Origin: Phycisphaerae bacterium
GTDB lineage: Bacteria; Planctomycetota; Phycisphaerae; Phycisphaerales; SM1A02
Length of the DNA stretch: 64,000 bases
Reading direction: 5' to 3'
Assembly (NCBI GenBank): GCA_002709295.1
Contig: PAQL01000029.1
Coordinates: 17,687-81,686 of the forward strand
Shown: positions 11,100 to 21,293 of the stretch, piece after piece
Layout: each line of letters begins with the position of its first letter
Numbering within the stretch: the first letter of the stretch is position 1
Notes under the pieces: model-generated
Database searches by the model: none
Seen by the model: only the letters and a program-made list of their open reading frames with translations
Told to the model about the DNA's origin: nothing
Translations under genes and position numbers: made by a program

Positions 11100-11867
11100 T
11101 CACCGGGCGACCCAGCGTCCGTCGCGTCGCAGCGGACGGATCGTCTCCTCGTCCAGCAGCAGACGATCCAGCCCCTCGGCGTCCACCTCCAGAAGCGGCG
11201 GATCCCGTTCGACCGCGAGGAGCGTCGACCAGCTCGGTCGACCGCTCTCCAGCAGCATCAGTTCGAACCGGAGCAGGGCGAGTTGATCGGTCCGGGACAG
11301 TTCGGGAATCCGGCGCCCGCCCTCCGAAGCCTCCTCCAGCCAGTTCACCCCACCCGGGAGGACGTCGTCCGAGGTCTCGAAGAGCCTGCGCACCACCGGA
11401 TCCTCGAACAGCCGACAAAGCTTCACCATCCGACCGGTTCGAAACTCTCCGAACGCCTCGGAGACCTGGAAGGCGGTCTGGGGATCGGCCTGCCGCCGCC
11501 ACGAGGCGATCAGCATCGGCGATCCGCCGGGCAGCATGGTCGCGGCCGCCCGCAGTCGTTTCCTGGTCCGGGCATCGGAGGCGAGCTCCGCGATGCCCAG
11601 CGCCGCGGAAGCGGAGTACTTCTCCCGATCGAGCCGCCCCGCCAGCCCGAAGAGTCTCCGAGCCACGCGACGCTCCTCCTCGGAGTCGCCGTCGGCGAGG
11701 TCCTCGGCAAGCTCGAAGTACGCCCGGGGGTCGGTCGGATCCAGCGCCTCGAGTCGTTGCTCGAGGGTGGTCGAGGCGCCGCCTGCCGACCCCGGGTGCG
11801 AGGCGGAGGCGGAGCCCAGCGCCATCGCGGACAGTACGAGGGTGATCACTCGCCAGCGGTCGATCAT
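11100..11867 (-). CDS. Small secreted protein, last gene of the VWA/Exb operon
   Basis: Not recognised. The 255-residue product begins with a Sec signal peptide (MIDRWRVITLVLSAMALGSA, cleavage near SASA-S) and continues as an alpha-helical protein. An early segment LEQRLEALDPTDPRAYFELA resembles one TPR-like hairpin, and RVARRLFGLAGRLDREKYSA may be a second. ATG 11867 overlaps the stop of the 1006-residue protein by 4 bases (ATGA) and has GGGAGG just upstream, so translation is coupled. Position at the end of the operon suggests an extracytoplasmic accessory factor of the machine encoded by 11864-21293. It converges with the sulfotransferase gene with only 6 bases between. Confidence 0.72.
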   Translation of the reverse strand: MIDRWRVITLVLSAMALGSASASHPGSAGGASTTLEQRLEALDPTDPRAYFELAEDLADGDSEEERRVARRLFGLAGRLDREKYSASAALGIAELASDARTRKRLRAAATMLPGGSPMLIASWRRQADPQTAFQVSEAFGEFRTGRMVKLCRLFEDPVVRRLFETSDDVLPGGVNWLEEASEGGRRIPELSRTDQLALLRFELMLLESGRPSWSTLLAVERDPPLLEVDAEGLDRLLLDEETIRPLRRDGRWVAR

Positions 11868-14800
11868 CCGAAACCTCCCAGCGGGTCGACGTCCCGGGGG
11901 ACCATCCTGACCCGTTCGAGTTCCGCGAGGGACAGTGCCGACAGTCCGATCTGCTGCAGGCCGCTGGAAGCCTCGGCCCGGGCGGCACCGGCGCGTTCGA
12001 TCACTTCCGCGATCGCACGACGCTGACCCGGCACCCGTGCCTCGAGGGCGAAGGCGAGGTAGTCGACCTCGGCGGCATGAGCGGCGACCAGAAGAAGCAC
12101 GTCGTCGCCGGCGAGTCGGCGTCGGGCGGCGCGACGACGATCGATGCTCTCGATGGTCGATTCGCTTCCGATCGCGAGGAAGAGTCCCGATGCCTCGCGA
12201 CGCATCGCATCCGCCGCGATGGCGGCCGCGTTCTCGGGACGACCGTCCCACCGTCCCGGCTCCCCACCGATGGTCCGGATCCGGGCTCGGGCGCGGGCGT
12301 GGATCGACTCGCCCAGTTCGCGCACGAACCGGTCGACGATTCCGGCCTCGGGGTCCAGAAGCGAGGCCGCATGCGATGCAAGGGCCAGACGGACCATCGA
12401 GTCGAGCTCCTCGCTGGACCGCTCCGGCAGCGGGGTGCCGGTGTACTGCTCGATGAACTCGAGAGTGTCCGCATTCATCGGAGCCTGACCGACGGTGTCG
12501 AGCAGCTGCATGGCCACCGTCGAACCGCGCTGGAACTGCTGCAAAGCGATGCTCCGAGCAGCCTCCCTCACCCCGCTGCGTCCCCGCCAGACCTCGGTGA
12601 CCAGGGCGGCCGCGTCGAGCGGGCCGAGATCACCGGCGGACAGGTCGTTCCGAAGCTGATCGAGGGTCGTCATCCGCTGGGTTCCGTCCCGTCCCGCCCT
12701 CTTCCACTGGTCCGCCCAGGCCCCGTCGTTGGAGCGCCGGATCGGACTGGTCAGAACCTCGCGATCGATGCCGGCATCACCACTGTTCACCTGGAGCTCG
12801 ACGCGGCCGAACTCGGCTTCCGCCTCCCGCCACCGCTCGTCGGCCAGCAGCGTCGAGGCCATGGCGAGCCGTTCGGCGGCAAGGGCGGCGGCCAGTCGAT
12901 CGATCGGGGTCCGAGCCGTCTCGATCAGCAGTCCGACTTCCGGAAGCAGACGATCGAACTGTTCCAGCAGCTCCGGATCGACCGGCACCACCTCCCCGCT
13001 GGCGACGGTGAGACGCGACTCGGGCCATCCGGCCACCGCCCGTCCCAGCGCCGCGGCGCGACCATCGAGTCCGAGGGCAGGATCCGGCACGAACTCCGGT
13101 CGATACCACCCGATGCCCCTCGGTCCCTCCAGCAGACTGGCGAGCACCCACGTCGACTCGGATCCGATCGCCGGATCCTCGAACCAGTTCCGGTAGGCCT
13201 CGCGGACCGATCGGGGATCGGGTCCGGTCGAGGCCCAGTCGATCTCACCCACCAGCCGGCCGAGCACGTCCGCGGACATGCTCGAGACGGCGAGACCGCG
13301 CCCGTCCGTGAGCATCCGTCCGACCGCAAGCAGCAGGGCCTGCTGAAGACCGGCGTCCGAACGAACCGCCTGCTGGGCCTCGAACCACCGCTCCCAGGCG
13401 TTCGCGACCGAGGCTGCATCCTCGACGTCGGTGATCGCGATCAACGGCGGCACCGCGGCATCGAGGGCCCGGCCCGCCAGCGCCGCGAAGGGACCCCCTC
13501 GGGCATGACGCCCGTTGGAACCCGCGAGCCCCCTCTGGACGATCCGACGCGCCTGGGCGCGGACCGTGTCGGGAAGCGACTCGTCCAGCACGACGACCCC
13601 GAGCACCCCCGCCCGGAAGCTCCGACGCCAGGTGTCCGCGGGATCGGCGATCGCACCCTCCGGCTCGATGTTCAGATCGGCCACCAGACGTTCCGCGGTC
13701 TCCGGCGGTTCGGCCCAGCGGAGCACGTCGAGCAGACCGCGCACCAGGTTCGCACGACGCCCCGGGTCGAGCAGCGGCCAGACCGCGGACATCGTCTCGA
13801 TCGCATGGCCCCACTGCGCGAGGCGGGCCGCGGAGGGGCGTCCGGGATCGAGCTCGAGGTCCCGGGCGAGTCGGACCAGATCCTCCTCGACGACGGGCAG
13901 ACGCTCGACCTCCATCACCATGGTGCCCGGCACCGCCTCGCCCCGGAACATCGGAGGTCGTTCCCACTGGGCGGGCCGGACCAGTCCGGCCCGCACGCTC
14001 GGGGTGACCACATGATCGGGATCGATCGGGCCCTGGGCGGCCAGAGCCGCCTCCCGAGCCTCCTCCCGGGCGAGTCGTTCCGTCTCGATCCGTCGGACCT
14101 GGGGGGAAGGCGCAGTGAGGGCGATGACCAGGATCGCCCCGAAGGAGACCGCGATGATCGCGAAGATCGCGACCAGGCGATTTCTCGAAGCCGTGGTGTC
14201 GCCGCGGAACTCGCGACCCACCCCGTCACTGACCCTGCCGATCATCGCCTCGACGCGTCCCGGCTCGGGCAGCGGCGTGGGAGCGGCGGGCATCGGCTGG
14301 GCCATCGACATCTGGTCCAGCGTGCCGCTGACCCCCTGCTCGCGCATGAACCCGGCGAGACCGACCACGATGTGCCGCAGCTTCGCGGAATCAAGACCGG
14401 CCTGTTCGGCCAGACCGGCGACGAGCACCCGGGTCCTCGCGTTCCAACCACCACCGGCCACGAGAATCGACAGCACGAGGCGATCGAACGGCGTGAGATG
14501 CTCCACGGTGATCCGAGGAGTCGGTCGGACCGGCTTCGGCTTTCCGGCGATCGGTCCCTCCGGAGGCGGCGCCGAAGCGGTCGGATGGTTCGGGCGGCGA
14601 GGCGGCACCCGCATCGTGGAGGGACGCTGGGGTCGCTTCGGGACGGCCCGGACATCCGAGGCGCGAAGCGCCGCGGCGGCGGCGCGGAGTCGGCCCGCGG
14701 CAGCGTCCTTCACCGTGGGAGGGACCCCCGGACCGTCGATCAATCGCAGTCGGGTGGTCAGCGCCGCCTCGAGCGTCGCGGCGTCGATCGGCCCCTCGCC

Positions 14801-14884
14801 AAGACCGAGAACGGCCCGCGGTCCGGCCGCTCGACTGCATCCGAGCAGGGCATCCACCTTCGACTGGATCGAGGCATCGGTCAT
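11864..14884 (-). CDS. Large single-span membrane protein of VWA/Exb operon
   Basis: Unrecognised 1006-residue protein. Residues 1-235 form a cytoplasmic region: a helical head, a Pro/Arg-rich linker (about 80-125) and a helical domain around TPFDRLVLSILVAGGGWNA. One clear membrane helix lies at about 236-257 (LVAIFAIIAVSFGAILVIAL). The remaining 740 residues are helical and repeat-like, probably periplasmic, with many Leu/Ala/Arg heptad-like segments but no enzyme motif. ATG 14884 overlaps the upstream TPR gene stop by 4 bases, and the stop overlaps the next gene start by 4 bases. The topology (cytoplasmic head, one helix, large outside part) fits a scaffold joining the ExbB/ExbD motor in this operon to periplasmic or outer-membrane partners; that is inference. 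Confidence 0.75.
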   Translation of the reverse strand: MTDASIQSKVDALLGCSRAAGPRAVLGLGEGPIDAATLEAALTTRLRLIDGPGVPPTVKDAAAGRLRAAAAALRASDVRAVPKRPQRPSTMRVPPRRPNHPTASAPPPEGPIAGKPKPVRPTPRITVEHLTPFDRLVLSILVAGGGWNARTRVLVAGLAEQAGLDSAKLRHIVVGLAGFMREQGVSGTLDQMSMAQPMPAAPTPLPEPGRVEAMIGRVSDGVGREFRGDTTASRNRLVAIFAIIAVSFGAILVIALTAPSPQVRRIETERLAREEAREAALAAQGPIDPDHVVTPSVRAGLVRPAQWERPPMFRGEAVPGTMVMEVERLPVVEEDLVRLARDLELDPGRPSAARLAQWGHAIETMSAVWPLLDPGRRANLVRGLLDVLRWAEPPETAERLVADLNIEPEGAIADPADTWRRSFRAGVLGVVVLDESLPDTVRAQARRIVQRGLAGSNGRHARGGPFAALAGRALDAAVPPLIAITDVEDAASVANAWERWFEAQQAVRSDAGLQQALLLAVGRMLTDGRGLAVSSMSADVLGRLVGEIDWASTGPDPRSVREAYRNWFEDPAIGSESTWVLASLLEGPRGIGWYRPEFVPDPALGLDGRAAALGRAVAGWPESRLTVASGEVVPVDPELLEQFDRLLPEVGLLIETARTPIDRLAAALAAERLAMASTLLADERWREAEAEFGRVELQVNSGDAGIDREVLTSPIRRSNDGAWADQWKRAGRDGTQRMTTLDQLRNDLSAGDLGPLDAAALVTEVWRGRSGVREAARSIALQQFQRGSTVAMQLLDTVGQAPMNADTLEFIEQYTGTPLPERSSEELDSMVRLALASHAASLLDPEAGIVDRFVRELGESIHARARARIRTIGGEPGRWDGRPENAAAIAADAMRREASGLFLAIGSESTIESIDRRRAARRRLAGDDVLLLVAAHAAEVDYLAFALEARVPGQRRAIAEVIERAGAARAEASSGLQQIGLSALSLAELERVRMVPRDVDPLGGFG

Positions 14885-17559
14885 GATCCACCTCCCTCGT
14901 CGGGGGCGGTGGTCTCCAACTCGCGGAGAGCGATCTCGATCTCGACATCGAGGGATCGAAGCTGTTCCGCCCAGGGATCGGGGCCCAGATCCGGATAGAG
15001 GACCTCGAGCTGCTGGAACACCTCGGAGGCCTTCAGGGGATCCTCCAGCAGCAACGCCTGGATCTGCCGGGTCCGGGCCTTCCACCAGAGCTCGCTTCCG
15101 TCGGGAGCGCCTCGAAGCAGGCGTCGCCAGCAGTCGAGCGCGAACTCCCGGTCCTCGAGCAGAGTCGCCAGATCCCCGGCGGCCTCCAGCACCGAACCGT
15201 CGTTGGGGCGACGTTCCAGGATCTGCCGGTACCAGACGATCGCCTCCTCGGCATCCTGCCGGTCCCCGGTCGCCCGGTGGAGGGCGTCGAGGGACGAGGC
15301 GACGCTGGCCGCGATCGGAAGCATCCGCTGACGATCGAGCACGTCGAAGACCTCGGCCCCTTCGTCGGCCGCGAGCAGTTCGAGATAGCCGCGTCCCGCC
15401 CGGACCGCCGCCCTGGCGGTCGAGACCTCCACGCTGCCGTCACGCATCCGCTGCACCGCCGCACGGTGCACTCGCTGGGCGGAGAGCCGGGTCCAGCGGG
15501 CCGCCTCGGGCGAGTCCTCCACCACCGGCATCGCCTCCATGCGGTTGCTCGCGTCCTCGAAGTCGCCGGCCCCGAGCGACAACCCGATCCGCCGATACTC
15601 GACCTCGTTGAGCATGTCGGGCAGATCGTCGAATCCTCCCCGTTCGACCGCGAGTTCGATCTGAGCCAGGTAGCGAGCCGCCCGTGCGGCATCGTGCACG
15701 TCGATGTCGGTGGCGACCTCGGCCGCCTGACGCAGAAGCATGCCGTCGAGACCCCGGAGATCCGTGAAGATCCCCTCGGTCCGATCCGGTCGATCGAAGA
15801 GTTCGTCGGCGACCTCCAGCATTCGTCGCCCGGGCTCACCGCGCTCCCCGGTGCGGGCGGCTCGGAACTGGCGATAGAGCGCCTGCGACGCCCGTCGCCT
15901 GGCGAGCTCCCAGGTCGGATGCGAAGGAGGCACCCCGAGAAGCACCGCGAGATCCTCCTCGCCGGGATTCTCCGACACCGCGATCCTCCGGACCAGCAGG
16001 GACGGGGCCCGATCGTCGGCGGGGAAGGCGTCGACGAACCGGGTCGAGAGTCCGTCGCGTCGAGCCGCGGCCTCCGCGGCCTCCTCCCCCCCAGCCTGCA
16101 CGATGCGGTCGAGGGCTACGATCGCCCCCCACAGGGCATCCGCTCGACGGTCGCCGCTGGTTCGCTCGGCCGCGAACTCGAACGCATCCGCGGCTTCCGC
16201 TGGTCGATCAAGCTCCAGCAGACTCCAGCCGACCAGCGCCAGGCACCCGGCCCGGGCGGTGCCGAAGACGTCGGCATCGGGTTCCTCGATCGCGGCCCGG
16301 AGATCATCGATGGCCTGCGAGAAGAACGCCCTTGCCGCGGTCTCGTCCCCCGCCTCCCGCGCCTCGAGCGCCATGCGGTACTGCTCGATCCCGCGAACGT
16401 AGCGGAACACGAAGCCCTCCCCCCCGAAGGCATCGGTCCCGAAACGCCCGGCCAGATCCTGGACCTGGGCGAGTTCGCCCCGACCCGCGAGGGCCGCAAG
16501 CGCGGTGGCCGCCACCCGGCGGGCGGCGGGGTCACCGGAGCTCACACCCCGCAGTCCGTTCACCGCCGCAAGACGCAGCCACGCGACCGGAAGCGACTGG
16601 TCGCCCTCGCGAGCGGCACGGTCGTCGAGCCGATCGAGCTCCTCGAGCATCGCCTCGAAGTCCCCGGAGTCCCCGAGGGCGGCGATCCACCAGCCGGGAA
16701 TCGCCTGACGGGTGGCGGCATGGGTCTCCGGATACATCAGACGATCGAACCAGGCATCTGCCGCCTTCGCCGAGATGAGCGAGGCGGTGGTCATCCCCAT
16801 GCCGAGCAACGCCCGGGCGAATCCCTCCACCGCCTGAAGATCGACCGAGACGTCCGAAGGGGATGGAATCGGTTCGTCACCCTGGAGCACCACGCCGAAG
16901 GCGAGCTGCGCCTTCTGCATCTCCGCCTCGTCCCCCCGGGCACGCCCGACGTAGTACCGACTCCAGCCTTCGAGCAGGGCCGCCATCGCCTGCCACTGCA
17001 GGGCGTCGTCGAGCCGTCGTTCCACCCGCCGCGAACTCGAGCGGGAGAGATTCTCGATCCGCCGGGTCATGGTGCGACGAATCGTCTCGAGCTCCTCGGA
17101 GAGCACCTCCAGTTCGGCGACCGCCGGGTTCACATCCCCGGGATCGGCCAGCTCGATCCGGTCGTCCTCCATGATGCGGGAGGCATTCAGGTACCGGTTC
17201 CGCGCCAGTGCCACTCGAAGACTCAGGCTCTCCTCGTCGGGCACGATCTCCAGAAGCCGGCGACTGCGCTCGACCAGTTCCTCCCGACGCTCCGGATCGT
17301 CCTCGGATCGAAGAAGGAGCGCGTAGACCTCGGCGAGTCGACCGGCGGCACGACGCCGGGCCTCGAGGTCGCCGGCCGCCTCCTCGAGACGCTCCTCGAG
17401 ATGGATCGCCAGAAGATCGGAGAATCCCCGGGCCTCCAGCCAGCGGGCGGTGCGATCCTGGGCGGAGGCCGTCGGGGAGAGACCCTGCAGCAGCACCATC
17501 AGAAGCCCCGCGAGAACGAGGCGGACGGGATGTCCCGACTCATTCCACCACGGGGACAT
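14881..17559 (-). CDS. Secreted TPR-rich protein of VWA/Exb operon
   Basis: 892-residue protein with a signal peptide (about residues 1-34, ending SPTASAQ) followed by almost continuous helical repeats. TPR-like units can be seen at FFSQAIDDLRAAIEEPDADV, LVGWSLLELDRPAEAADAFE, and near the C-terminus AIVWYRQILERRPNDGSVLE and LEAAGDLATLLEDREFALDC. TPR solenoids mediate protein contacts; no catalytic motif is present. ATG 17559 lies 20 bases inside the second exbD gene, and its own stop overlaps the next gene by 4 bases. Planctomycete and bacteroidete ExbB-ExbD clusters commonly carry a TPR gene of this kind, so it is probably the periplasmic partner of the motor. The exact role is unknown. Confidence 0.78.
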   Translation of the reverse strand: MSPWWNESGHPVRLVLAGLLMVLLQGLSPTASAQDRTARWLEARGFSDLLAIHLEERLEEAAGDLEARRRAAGRLAEVYALLLRSEDDPERREELVERSRRLLEIVPDEESLSLRVALARNRYLNASRIMEDDRIELADPGDVNPAVAELEVLSEELETIRRTMTRRIENLSRSSSRRVERRLDDALQWQAMAALLEGWSRYYVGRARGDEAEMQKAQLAFGVVLQGDEPIPSPSDVSVDLQAVEGFARALLGMGMTTASLISAKAADAWFDRLMYPETHAATRQAIPGWWIAALGDSGDFEAMLEELDRLDDRAAREGDQSLPVAWLRLAAVNGLRGVSSGDPAARRVAATALAALAGRGELAQVQDLAGRFGTDAFGGEGFVFRYVRGIEQYRMALEAREAGDETAARAFFSQAIDDLRAAIEEPDADVFGTARAGCLALVGWSLLELDRPAEAADAFEFAAERTSGDRRADALWGAIVALDRIVQAGGEEAAEAAARRDGLSTRFVDAFPADDRAPSLLVRRIAVSENPGEEDLAVLLGVPPSHPTWELARRRASQALYRQFRAARTGERGEPGRRMLEVADELFDRPDRTEGIFTDLRGLDGMLLRQAAEVATDIDVHDAARAARYLAQIELAVERGGFDDLPDMLNEVEYRRIGLSLGAGDFEDASNRMEAMPVVEDSPEAARWTRLSAQRVHRAAVQRMRDGSVEVSTARAAVRAGRGYLELLAADEGAEVFDVLDRQRMLPIAASVASSLDALHRATGDRQDAEEAIVWYRQILERRPNDGSVLEAAGDLATLLEDREFALDCWRRLLRGAPDGSELWWKARTRQIQALLLEDPLKASEVFQQLEVLYPDLGPDPWAEQLRSLDVEIEIALRELETTAPDEGGGS

Positions 17560-17962
17560 AGGTCACCTCCTTGAAACCGGCATCCCGTCCGCACTGGATC
17601 GCGGCGGCGGCGGCGGAGACCGTCGGCCCGTCATGGACCCGGACGAACAGACCCGGGCCCTGCGGAAGCTTCGACAACGCCTCGACCAGGGGACCTCGAT
17701 CCGCGAATCGCCGATCGCCGATCGAGTACTCGACGCTTCCATCAACGAGCTTGACCTCGAGCACCTGCGGTTCGAAGTCCTGCTGAGCGGTTCCCCCCGC
17801 CTGATCCTCGATCGAGAGATTCGGACTCAACCGGTCCTCGCGCTGGGTGATCACGGTGGTGACGATGAAGTAGGCGAGCAGCAGGAACACGACATCGATC
17901 ATCGACGAGAGCGAGAGCGTCACTCGTCGTGCCGATTGTCGATGTCGGGGTGCCAGTCGCAT
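17540..17962 (-). CDS. exbD: ExbD/TolR-family proton-channel protein (second copy)
   Basis: Biopolymer-transport protein of 140 residues with the classical ExbD architecture: short cytoplasmic N-terminus, one helix (SMIDVVFLLLAYFIVTTV, residues 20-37) and a periplasmic domain. The essential protonatable aspartate is D23 in SLSSMIDVVFLLL. The periplasmic end (GLFVRVHDGPTVSAAAAAIQ ... EVTYVPVVE) matches the TolR/ExbD periplasmic fold. With ExbB it forms a proton-driven motor in the inner membrane. It lies 7 bases after the first exbD and overlaps the TPR gene by 20 bases. Two different ExbD paralogues beside one ExbB is a frequent planctomycete arrangement. Confidence 0.9.
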   Translation of the reverse strand: MRLAPRHRQSARRVTLSLSSMIDVVFLLLAYFIVTTVITQREDRLSPNLSIEDQAGGTAQQDFEPQVLEVKLVDGSVEYSIGDRRFADRGPLVEALSKLPQGPGLFVRVHDGPTVSAAAAAIQCGRDAGFKEVTYVPVVE

Positions 17963-17969
17963 CGTTCAG

Positions 17970-18395
17970 TCAGTTCCCGGGGGCGGTGGCGATCCGGACG
18001 GCGGGAATCCCTGCCTTCTGGAGCGTGGAGAGGATCAGGTTCAAGGCTGACGTGGGGGCGTTTCGATCCGCCCGCACCAGCGGTCGAGCGGTCTCGCCCC
18101 GGGCTTCGGACTCCCGCGCCAGATCGGAGGCGAGACTCCGGATCTCGTCGATTCCGACCGCTCCGGAGGCGATCTCGTAGGTCCCGTCGGCGAGCACGTT
18201 GATGATCAGTCCCGCCTCGGTCGCGGCATCGGTCTTCTCCCCCGCCTCCTCGGGCAGATCCAGATCGGCCCTGGAGTACTGCGAGAGCTGTGCGGTCACG
18301 AGGAAGAAGATCAGCAACTGGAACACGATGTCGATCATCGGCGTCATGTCCAGCGGCAGCTGTCTCTCGCGTGGCCTGCGGGCGTTGAATCTCAT
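17970..18395 (-). CDS. exbD: ExbD/TolR-family proton-channel protein (first copy)
   Basis: 141-residue ExbD-type subunit. The membrane helix is MIDIVFQLLIFFLVTAQL (residues 20-37) with the proton-relaying aspartate D22, preceded by the typical LPLDMTP. The periplasmic domain ends VRADRNAPTSALNLILSTLQ, the segment that in ExbD/TolR pairs with a neighbouring subunit. It differs clearly from the second copy downstream (QLPLDMTPMID versus VTLSLSSMID), so the pair probably makes a hetero-dimer in the channel. ATG 18395 overlaps the ExbB stop by 4 bases, implying translational coupling and near-fixed stoichiometry. Confidence 0.91.
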   Translation of the reverse strand: MRFNARRPRERQLPLDMTPMIDIVFQLLIFFLVTAQLSQYSRADLDLPEEAGEKTDAATEAGLIINVLADGTYEIASGAVGIDEIRSLASDLARESEARGETARPLVRADRNAPTSALNLILSTLQKAGIPAVRIATAPGN

Positions 18396-19186
18396 GAACC
18401 GGCTCCACCGGGCTGCGGCGCGGCGGGCGAGGTCGGTCCTCCGCCCGGACGGGCGAATCCGGCGGGACCGCCGGAACTGGCTCCACTGGCCTCCAGCATG
18501 AGCACCATCCGGTCGAGTTCCTGCCCCGCCTCGGCCGCGATCCCGTCGATGCGGTTCCGGAAGACGGTGAAGAGCGTGACGCAGGGAATCGCCACGATGA
18601 GACCGAGCATCGTGGTCACCAGTGCGAGCTTGATGTTCCCCGCCAGCGCGGCGTAGTAGTTGGCATCGTTGACCGCACTGAGTTCCACGGTGTCGAAGGC
18701 GCCGATCATGCCCTGCACGGTGCCGAGCAGACCCAGCAGCGGAGCGACGGTCCCGATGATGCCCAGCCCGTCGGTGGTTCGGTAGAGCCTCGCCGCCTGC
18801 TCCTGACCGGCCTCCTCGAGCACCTGCTTGATCTCGAACGCCCCGAACGGCGAACGGATGAAGCGGGTCAGACCTGGAGCGAGGATCCGGGTCAGGAAGG
18901 TGTCGTTGGATCCGTTGCTGCAGTAGTCGAGGGCCTCCTGCACCCGTCCGTCACCGAGGAAGTCGCGGATCGCGAGCACCTGGGTCGGAGGAAGCAGGGC
19001 GGTGCGTCGGATCTGCACCGCGTGGACCACGACCAGCCCCACCGCGACCATGCTCAGGGCGATGATGATCCATCCGATCACCCCTCCCGCGGTGATGTAG
19101 ACCATCAGGGATCCGGCGGATTCGACGGACTCCGCGGAGTCCGCCGCCTCCTGGGCGAACAGGAGGGCTGAGCTGAATGAATTCAC
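18392..19186 (-). CDS. exbB: MotA/TolQ/ExbB proton-channel family protein
   Basis: 264-residue inner-membrane stator subunit. Helix 1 is ITAGGVIGWIIIALSMVAVG; the conserved C-terminal channel region reads TVAPLLGLLGTVQGMIGAF and LALVTTMLGLIVAIPCVTLF, the two helices that line the ExbB/TolQ pentamer. The tail is Gly/Pro-rich (FARPGGGPTSPAAPQPGG). The first 27 residues before helix 1 (SSALLFAQEAADSAES) look like an exported leader segment, common in planctomycete members. GTG 19186 overlaps the upstream gene by 4 bases (GTGA), and the stop overlaps exbD by 4. It should use the proton motive force to drive the VWA protein and TPR partners of the operon. Confidence 0.92.
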   Translation of the reverse strand: MNSFSSALLFAQEAADSAESVESAGSLMVYITAGGVIGWIIIALSMVAVGLVVVHAVQIRRTALLPPTQVLAIRDFLGDGRVQEALDYCSNGSNDTFLTRILAPGLTRFIRSPFGAFEIKQVLEEAGQEQAARLYRTTDGLGIIGTVAPLLGLLGTVQGMIGAFDTVELSAVNDANYYAALAGNIKLALVTTMLGLIVAIPCVTLFTVFRNRIDGIAAEAGQELDRMVLMLEASGASSGGPAGFARPGGGPTSPAAPQPGGAGS

Positions 19187-20289
19187 GGCGCGTTCTCCGT
19201 CGGTTGCTGGTCTGGAAACTCGATCATGATCATGGTCCGCATGGCTCCGGCCTCCTCGTCCCGCCCGATCGCCTCGAGACCCTCGACGAGGTGGCGTCCC
19301 GCATCGAGTCTCAGAGCCGGGGGCACAGCCTCCTCCAGGGCCATGACCTGGACGAGATCGAGGACGCCCCGCAGGCGTTCCTCGTCGTTCTCGGCGTGAC
19401 GCAGGGAGGCGCGACCGATCCGGTGCCGGGTCCATCCCACCTGCCAGTTCGGGGCGGTGCGGACCTGCTCGAGCAGTCGGCGTCTGGCCTGCTCCCGGAT
19501 CCGGCGATCCGGGGAATCGGCGCTGGCGAGATCGAAGAGATAGATGGTCCCCGGGTCGAGTCCCCGCGGGGAGACCTCGGGAGGTCCCGACCCGTCGAGC
19601 AGTCGATTCCAGAGATCCCTGCGAAGAGCGGACGACTCGTGAATCCCGGGTTGACTGCGAAGACGCTCGCGCACCTCGAGTCCCGCTCCTTCGCCACTGA
19701 CCGGAGGCACCATCGGCACCAGCCGGGTCCTCTCATCGACCACGTCGCCGAAGTAGGCGGCTCCGGTGAATCGATCGGTCCGGGCCTCGGACAGTGCGAG
19801 CTCACCGAGGATCACCGCCTGGGCCTGCACGTCATCGACGCGTCCCTCGAGAATCGCGGAGGAAACCAGACCCTCCAGAGCGAGAGCGAACATCGCCCCC
19901 TCCCGGTCGGCGTTCATGTCCATCGCCTCGAGGAACGCCTCCCTCGCCAGTCGAGCGTCCCCTCTTCGCAGGCGGATGCGACCGCGCCAGAGGCGGTCGC
20001 CGAGAGCCAGTCCCCGGTCGATCCCGACCTCCAGGTTGCCGTCGGAGGGACGTGGATCGACGGCCGCCAGGCGGTCCCAGGGCACCAGCTCCTCACGATC
20101 CAGGCCTCGATCGGTGCGAACCACCCGGAGACCGTCCCGGGTCGCGGCCGCCCGCTCGATGGGGAACGAGCCAAGTCCTCCGCGACGATGCACCAGCCGC
20201 TCGGCGAGCGGGGCGTCGGACGATCCCGGCATCGCCACGAGCAGACTCGTGAGGACCGGCAGGAGAAGTCGGAGGCGAGGACGGCTCAT
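19183..20289 (-). CDS. Secreted protein of unknown function in VWA/Exb operon
   Basis: Not recognised. The 368-residue product has a signal peptide (RLRLLLPVLTSLLVAMPGSS) and then a mature region with helical TPR-like character (for example LWRGRIRLRRGDARLAREAF and FALALEGLVSSAILEGRVDD). A PWDRLAAVDP segment near residue 70 is reminiscent of short beta-rich modules in planctomycete secreted proteins that contain PWS/R-type motifs. No enzyme signature is visible. ATG 20289 overlaps the VWA gene stop by 4 bases and its stop overlaps the ExbB GTG by 4, so it is an integral member of the operon and likely sits in the periplasm. Confidence 0.7.
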   Translation of the reverse strand: MSRPRLRLLLPVLTSLLVAMPGSSDAPLAERLVHRRGGLGSFPIERAAATRDGLRVVRTDRGLDREELVPWDRLAAVDPRPSDGNLEVGIDRGLALGDRLWRGRIRLRRGDARLAREAFLEAMDMNADREGAMFALALEGLVSSAILEGRVDDVQAQAVILGELALSEARTDRFTGAAYFGDVVDERTRLVPMVPPVSGEGAGLEVRERLRSQPGIHESSALRRDLWNRLLDGSGPPEVSPRGLDPGTIYLFDLASADSPDRRIREQARRRLLEQVRTAPNWQVGWTRHRIGRASLRHAENDEERLRGVLDLVQVMALEEAVPPALRLDAGRHLVEGLEAIGRDEEAGAMRTMIMIEFPDQQPTENAP

Positions 20290-21293
20290 CGTCTTCCCGC
20301 TCCTTCCGGCACGAAGCGGAACACGCCGTCGGTTCGTGACGCGATGCTTCGCAGGGCCTTCTGACTCGCATCGGCGCTGAAGGCGATCGTGTTGATGATC
20401 GACGGTCGACGGCGGGAGCTGCCGTTGAGAAGGATGACCTCCTCCTCGGTCTCCGGGGGGATGATCCCGTCGGTGAGGAAGAAGATGGTGTCGGGAGGAT
20501 CGTCGCCGGACTTGAACAGGTACTGAAAGGCGGGCATCGGTTCGGTGCCGCCTCCGGCCCGGATGACGTTGTCGATCCAGACCTTGACGGAATTGACCGT
20601 GCCTCCGGTGGCTCGCAGCCAGGACTTCTGGAAGTCGGGCACCTGGACCCCGCTCGAATACAGCGCGATCTTGAACTCGGCGAAGTCGGGCAGCGCCGCC
20701 AGGGAGCGGATGAGCTCGCCGAGGGCCAGCTCGATCCGGCCGTTCTGTCCCATCGAGCCGCTGATGTCCACGACGTAGGCGAAACGCTGACCGCGGGCCC
20801 GGATCCCGAAGAATTCCGCACCGGCACCCGATCCGGTGCCCAGACCGGTTCCCAGGCCCTCTCCCTCGGTCCCCATGTCGGTGTCCAGACCGGTGGTCGC
20901 GGCATCGAGCTCGAGCTTCGGAAGCTCCATCGAGTCGCTGGCCTCCAGGGCGAGCGAATCGTCGCCGCTGTCGGTGTTGAGCTCCGGCGTGAGGACGTCC
21001 TCGGTCTCCAGCGGTTCGAGCATCTCGGTCAGGATCTCGTCGGGAAGGACCGAGAGATCCAGCACCACCGGAGTCGGTGCCGGCGGCCCGGGAGGAGCCT
21101 CGAGCTCCGTGAAATGAAGCCAGATCATGATCGCGATGTGGATCGGAAGACTGACCGCGACCGCCAGCAGAGCGAGGTGGATCCGTCGCTGTCGGAGCAG
21201 CCGCCGGCGTTCCTCCTCCAGGGACTCGATCCGGGCGGCAAGGGTCGACCTGCCGTCCGGATCGGAGCTGGATGGTGGTGCGGACATGCTCAT
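20286..21293 (-). CDS. TonB-like membrane-anchored VWA-domain protein
   Basis: First gene of the eight-gene operon. Residues 15-38 are an Arg/Glu-rich cytoplasmic helix, 39-59 a membrane helix (HLALLAVAVSLPIHIAIMIW), then a Pro-rich stretch (APPGPPAPTPVVLDLSVLPD) very like the TonB/TolA start. An acidic/Gly linker (to about 160) leads to a von Willebrand A domain with the MIDAS set DISGS (D176, S178, S180), a Thr in AGGGTEPMPAF and Asp in FFLTDGIIP. Anchoring, Pro-rich linker and neighbouring ExbB/ExbD suggest a TonB-type force transducer whose C-terminal domain is a VWA fold that binds a metal-dependent ligand. ATG 21293 is used; ATG 21287 is an alternative. Confidence 0.85.
   Translation of the reverse strand: MSMSAPPSSSDPDGRSTLAARIESLEEERRRLLRQRRIHLALLAVAVSLPIHIAIMIWLHFTELEAPPGPPAPTPVVLDLSVLPDEILTEMLEPLETEDVLTPELNTDSGDDSLALEASDSMELPKLELDAATTGLDTDMGTEGEGLGTGLGTGSGAGAEFFGIRARGQRFAYVVDISGSMGQNGRIELALGELIRSLAALPDFAEFKIALYSSGVQVPDFQKSWLRATGGTVNSVKVWIDNVIRAGGGTEPMPAFQYLFKSGDDPPDTIFFLTDGIIPPETEEEVILLNGSSRRRPSIINTIAFSADASQKALRSIASRTDGVFRFVPEGAGRR

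Follow-up and report, generated by a model that had tools for sequence, protein, structure and literature searches.

VWA-domain proteins with the topology of TonB and TolA have been proposed as a new class of force transducers, occurring in bacteria of the Planctomycetes–Verrucomicrobia–Chlamydiae (PVC) group, where their genes accompany a tolQ-like gene, a pair of heterologous tolR-like genes, and a gene for a tetratricopeptide-repeat (TPR) protein, with an SHLS motif in "many" of the vWA members (Williams-Jones et al., 2025, section 8, Fig. 4a-b; PMC12204202). In this class, a Pro-rich, disordered linker some 100 residues long leads from the helix to the vWA fold, and the His of the helix would mediate its docking at the motor's edge. 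This motif, Ser-3X-His-6X-Leu-3X-Ser, is common to the helices of TonB and TolA, and its Ser and His residues touch the first transmembrane (TM) helix of ExbB or TolQ in cryo-electron microscopy structures (PMC12905483). Here, we describe an eight-gene operon on the minus strand of a 64,000-nucleotide stretch (the window) of contig PAQL01000029.1 from the Phycisphaerae bacterium assembly GCA_002709295.1, encoding, in order, a VWA protein, a probably secreted protein (sec1), ExbB, two distinct ExbD proteins, a TPR protein (TPR892), a 1006-residue membrane protein (M1006), and a second probably secreted protein (sec2). Judged by its sequence, the operon belongs to the vWA force transducers by every feature tested, and shares with them the anchor (S48, H52, and L59), the disordered linker, a VWA domain with a metal ion-dependent adhesion site (MIDAS), and the set of one TolQ, two TolR, and a TPR protein.

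In the published class, the vWA gene often lies downstream of the TPR and motor genes, whereas in the window it comes first; sec1, M1006, and sec2 are absent from section 8 of the proposal (PMC12204202), and M1006-sec2 is nearly restricted to the order Phycisphaerales. The core, made up of the vWA transducer, TolQ, two TolR, and TPR, is already known; new here are the extension by M1006-sec2, specific to the order, the recognition of sec1 as a conserved component, and relocation of the motor with the anchor kept. An earlier note on this DNA had suggested an Exb-energised machine with a TonB/TolA-like VWA arm, an idea well supported by the SxxxH motif, the motor residues, and the gene order, but not a new one (PMC12204202). 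Like TonB-ExbB-ExbD, the window system has the common motor subunits, an SxxxH docking helix, and a Pro-rich linker; unlike it, the system ends its arm in a VWA domain where TonB has its C-terminal domain, uses two ExbD proteins that differ from each other, and lacks a receptor gene among the genes conserved in order. With Tol-Pal (TolQRA, TolB, Pal, and CpoB) it has in common the motor, an anchored arm, and a periplasmic TPR partner, CpoB being a TPR protein. It differs in being without the TolA fold and in the TolB_N domain (PF04052) being found in none of 101 genomes of the order, the window's own included, with three control genomes positive and with a profile that may miss diverged TolB.

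The VWA protein and the motor subunits

The VWA transducer (20286-21293, 335 residues) is predicted to consist of a cytosolic N-terminus, one TM helix (40-58), a Pro-rich, disordered linker (approximately 64-160, as read off the sequence), and a periplasmic VWA domain. Its sole helix reads SLPIHIAIMIWL and contains the SxxxH motif (S48xxxH52......L59), with the Leu of the longer motif present as L59. S48 and H52 are unchanged in 24 of 24 aligned VWA homologues, down to 16% identity, and the D, S, and S residues of the MIDAS are likewise invariant in these 24; in the window protein the site reads D176-x-S178-x-S180, with T250 and D275. In agreement with this, the earlier note placed a TonB/TolA-like anchor in the only helix, followed by the Pro-rich linker, and a MIDAS-containing domain beyond. 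The window protein itself falls under the Pfam cut-off (E=2e-4), VWA_3 is matched by 21 of the 24 homologues (best 6e-12), and the VWA profile matches solved VWA-containing structures among the PDB profiles (best 4e-15).

The anchor motif is scarce among TM-like segments of this genome: of the 92 contained in 83 predicted proteins, encoded by the window and by four further loci, 3 have SxxxH. The three carriers—the window VWA protein, a second VWA protein (L061, contig C10), and a 420-residue Pro-rich protein (L064, contig C35)—are all TonB-like and adjoin exbB/exbD genes. In sec1-carrying loci, all VWA proteins with an intact N-terminus have the motif (that of L107 being judged by eye), and it is mostly absent from the VWA proteins of loci without such a motor. 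L061 (4482-9807) is a simpler, paralogous VWA-exbB-exbD-exbD-TPR set, the TPR protein of which shares a C-terminal region with TPR892. In L064 (5173-7323), a gyrA-like gene is followed by a STAS-like gene, exbD, and the gene for the 420-residue protein, which has the anchor and no TonB_C match.

ExbB (18392-19186, 264 residues, GTG start), ExbD1 (17970-18395, 141 residues), and the distinct ExbD2 (17540-17962, 140 residues) all pass the Pfam cut-offs (E=2e-24, 4e-22, and 4e-8, respectively). In 39 eight-gene operons, S45, T156, T192, and P201 of ExbB, D22 of ExbD1, and D23 of ExbD2 are each invariant (39/39). T156 and T192 align to T148 and T181 of Escherichia coli ExbB, and the two ExbB Thr residues and the ExbD Asp have been named essential, with a conserved Ser in TM1 and a conserved Pro in TM3 of ExbB/TolQ belonging to the network on which TonB or TolA docks (PMC12905483). 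Because these Thr and Asp residues never vary and match essential ones, the ExbB/ExbD pore is expected to conduct protons, with Asp22 as the expected carrier in ExbD1, and the invariant S45 and P201 are candidate partners for docking of the VWA helix. The presence of two different ExbD proteins suggests a heterodimeric axle. A defence system of the Zorya type was considered and rejected, PADLOC giving just a weak match of ZorA to ExbB (E=0.01) and no other family; plasmid-borne mobility was likewise rejected, ExbB being without a plasmid relative at 1e-20.

Conservation of the operon and relocation of the motor

All eight genes were reproduced by translation, and the junctions from the VWA gene to sec2 consist of overlaps of 4, 4, and 4 bases, a gap of 7, and overlaps of 20, 4, and 4, exactly the six overlaps and single gap described previously. 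Among 49 loci with both VWA and sec1 genes, the complete eight-gene order was found in 29 and no reordering was seen; the remainder comprise two fusions, five loci without motor genes, and others mostly cut by contig ends. Because the full order is intact in these 29 related loci, the operon is no chance arrangement. Gene content, the conservation of motifs and residues, and co-inheritance are direct observations.

The named relatives are mostly metagenome-assembled genomes of Phycisphaerales. Four families of the order have M1006 in 44/46, 45/45, 1/1, and 6/6 of their sampled genomes (96/98 together, genomes of 1.8-2.0 Mb among them), and its other two families in 0/53; outside the order, two weak matches (E=2e-14 and 5e-4) were found among approximately 280 other sampled genomes of the phylum. 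The VWA protein occurs in 136 of 151 genomes of the order, a count that takes in paralogues. In other Planctomycetota, the core reads VWA-X-exbB-exbD-exbD-TPR. Several variants were observed alongside these arrangements. Two loci of family f5 (L047, 451-6187; L048, 10175-16000) carry a tandem pair of VWA transducer genes and a run of three exbD genes, where one and two, respectively, are usual. Five others (L089, L095, L097, L099, and L110) contain large open frames (770-1237 residues) with a C-terminal VWA domain and exbB nearby on the opposite strand, their ExbB proteins forming a separate clade. In L194 (2625-7792), exbB-exbD is followed by a gene for a 1189-residue protein resembling a PD40/TolB-type propeller.

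In the five loci without motor genes (L096, L103, L104, L106, and L111), VWA-sec1-TPR occurs without exbB or exbD and is followed by M1006-sec2 where the contig reaches that far, and every VWA protein keeps SxxxH. The genomes of L104 and L111 contain an exbB-exbD-exbD trio elsewhere (L187 and L188), and in an ExbB tree of 72 rows these two nest inside the 41-row clade of the eight-gene operons (94/98 support, with 97/89 and 100/94 at inner forks), separate from the second trios of the same genomes. By this phylogeny, the motor in both genomes is unlinked yet cognate. The trios found in the draft genomes of L103 and L106 all belong to another ExbB clade. The earlier note had held that a VWA or 1006-residue gene unlinked from exbBD would count against it; the genes are indeed unlinked in five loci, but the coupling appears to survive without linkage, because a cognate trio lies elsewhere in two of the genomes and the anchor motif is kept. 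Relocation therefore argues for, not against, functional coupling of the VWA protein and the motor.

Accessory proteins

sec1 (19183-20289, 368 residues) has a probable signal peptide, a small beta domain (31-78), and a TPR-like alpha-solenoid (84-357), with R106, R109, D111, and W286 invariant. Its predicted model (mean predicted local distance difference test score, pLDDT, 88.8) shows the beta domain followed by TPR, the same layout as in the X protein of the phylum-wide core. A profile-to-profile comparison of sec1 with X gave Prob 96.7 over the whole length, a value that is not database-corrected and is aided by TPR similarity; a profile-to-sequence search gave no match, and in the PDB no match to sec1 was below 1e-3, those listed being mostly TPR and other helical-repeat proteins. 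TPR892 (14881-17559, 892 residues), a putative secreted or periplasmic protein homologous to the TPR gene product of the core, matches the TPR family weakly (E=0.01), with homologues reaching 6e-19. We consider sec1 and TPR892 to belong to the core, and take M1006-sec2 for an addition of the Phycisphaerales order.

M1006 (11864-14884) is predicted to have cytosolic helical domains (3-79 and 132-182), one clear TM helix (237-255), and a periplasmic HEAT/ARM-type alpha-solenoid (320-992) in a model with a mean pLDDT of 83.6 and a predicted template modelling score of 0.46. A second hydrophobic stretch (929-947) sits within a helix of the predicted solenoid, in keeping with the earlier description of a one-helix membrane protein. 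Neither M1006 nor sec2 (11100-11867, 255 residues) matched a Pfam, NCBIfam, or PADLOC family, a stray AP2 match (E=0.009) arising among 35 M1006 homologues. An assignment of function from the M1006 fold was attempted and abandoned, Foldseek and VIA returning generic HEAT/ARM solenoids alone (best Z 7.9, root mean square deviation 24.7 over 212 residues). By appearance only, the N-terminus is J-domain-like. In two relatives, M1006 and sec2 are fused (L038, 1449 residues; L041, 878 residues, with a shortened M1006), as confirmed with a clean sec2 profile built without the fused proteins. The fusion joins sec2 to the C-terminus of M1006, which fits, together with the TM prediction, a periplasmic location for the C-terminal part.

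Possible function and its alternatives

We consider it probable that the operon encodes a trans-envelope force transducer driven by the proton motive force, the likeliest job of which would be constitutive envelope maintenance. The way in which the parts assemble, their stoichiometry, the transmission of force, the partner of the VWA domain, and the physiological role are what we infer here. Five ExbB subunits would surround an ExbD1-ExbD2 heterodimer, with proton flow along the ExbD aspartates and ExbB threonines powering the motor. The SxxxH helix of the VWA protein would dock on ExbB in the fashion of TonB and TolA, and force would travel via the disordered linker to the periplasmic VWA domain, which would hold its partner—most likely a TPR protein of the operon, or some outer-membrane or peptidoglycan component—through the metal site. 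sec1 and TPR892 may serve as periplasmic scaffold or clutch parts, and M1006 with sec2 as a second inner-membrane-anchored alpha-solenoid that connects a cytosolic domain with the scaffold in the periplasm; the pushing or pulling of a VWA "ligand", with TPR proteins as scaffolds, would agree with the earlier proposal. As to the job itself, a Tol-like coupling of outer membrane and peptidoglycan is our best guess, held with confidence well below that in the mechanism. Envelope maintenance is suggested by near-universal retention together with the absence of TolB, which is a correlation only.

Several points weigh against this proposal. The final Ser of the SHLS motif is replaced by Glu63 in the window VWA protein, and the position of Glu176 in E. 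coli ExbB is occupied by Leu. The 5:2 ExbB:ExbD stoichiometry and the VWA-ExbB contact are putative, as is any partner named for the VWA domain, and no experiments on any member were found in the literature. A cognate motor was not found for three of the five motor-less loci (L096, L103, and L106), all in draft genomes. Finally, the argument for Tol replacement is weak, as PF04052 can miss diverged TolB.

The main alternative, also suggested by Williams-Jones et al. (PMC12204202) and in our judgment unlikely, is a gliding or adhesion machine like Agl-Glt of Myxococcus, in which the motor would move or present a VWA-mediated adhesion via a trans-envelope complex. The parts lists are alike, with one TolQ (AglR), two distinct TolR (AglQ and AglS), TPR proteins (GltC/D/E), and a one-TM arm, GltG, that binds AglR and combines a cytosolic domain with a Pro-rich/TonB-like part in the periplasm (PMC3169522); M1006 has a GltG-like topology. 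However, that arm ends TonB-like and the window arm ends in a VWA domain, and Pfam scans of the operon proteins show TPR and VWA alone, with nothing Glt-specific and with the FHA/TonB domains of GltG absent from M1006 (no Glt profiles were run). Moreover, retention of the operon by almost every genome of four families, those of 1.8-2.0 Mb included, fits a lifestyle trait poorly, and the window's own genome additionally has genes for one MotA-like and one MotB-like protein.

We regard as quite improbable a TonB-like importer energiser, in which a VWA domain would substitute for the C-terminal domain of TonB and open a special class of outer-membrane receptor. The logic of anchor and motor is alike, and TonB_C (PF03544) was found in just 41 of 101 genomes of the order and neither in the window VWA protein nor elsewhere in its genome; the conserved gene order, however, includes no receptor gene. 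TonB acts by beta-augmentation, and we know of no VWA fold that offers it. The genome's only Plug-domain receptor lies on contig C31 (L065, 5403-7499) among LysR-, TetR-, and DUF1206-like, proteobacterial-looking genes, and this contig may be contamination (4% in the assembly). Least probable of all is a chaperone or an assembly or secretion factor, in which the motor would power assembly of outer-membrane or secreted proteins assisted by the VWA domain, and the SxxxH helix would serve as a tether, not a force arm. VWA and TPR modules are frequent in assembly complexes such as Bat, and a secretin-like gene precedes TPR, an X-like gene, and an SxxxH VWA gene in one Verrucomicrobia locus (L144, 3249-10546; exbB/exbD not found within 20.5 kb), but this link is a single case, and among the conserved genes of the Phycisphaerales loci no secretin gene was noticed.

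Returning to the force transducer, a more far-reaching version can be put forward tentatively, namely that the envelope of Phycisphaerales relies constitutively on the eight-gene machine as its main means of transmitting force, in the role of Tol-Pal, and that M1006-sec2 forms a second arm, anchored in the inner membrane, which connects the VWA-TPR scaffold with a partner in the cytosol. No report of such a two-arm layout was found for Ton, Tol, or the published vWA transducers. Overall, the operon suggests that a VWA domain can occupy the outer-membrane-binding end of a TonB/TolA-type protein, in a system retained by whole families in which no TolB is recognisable. Direct tests, open to mutation, of whether proton motors can drive folds other than those of TonB and TolA, and of what replaces Tol-Pal in planctomycetes, are offered by the unvarying residues of the anchor and the proton pathway and by the motor's relocation in nature.

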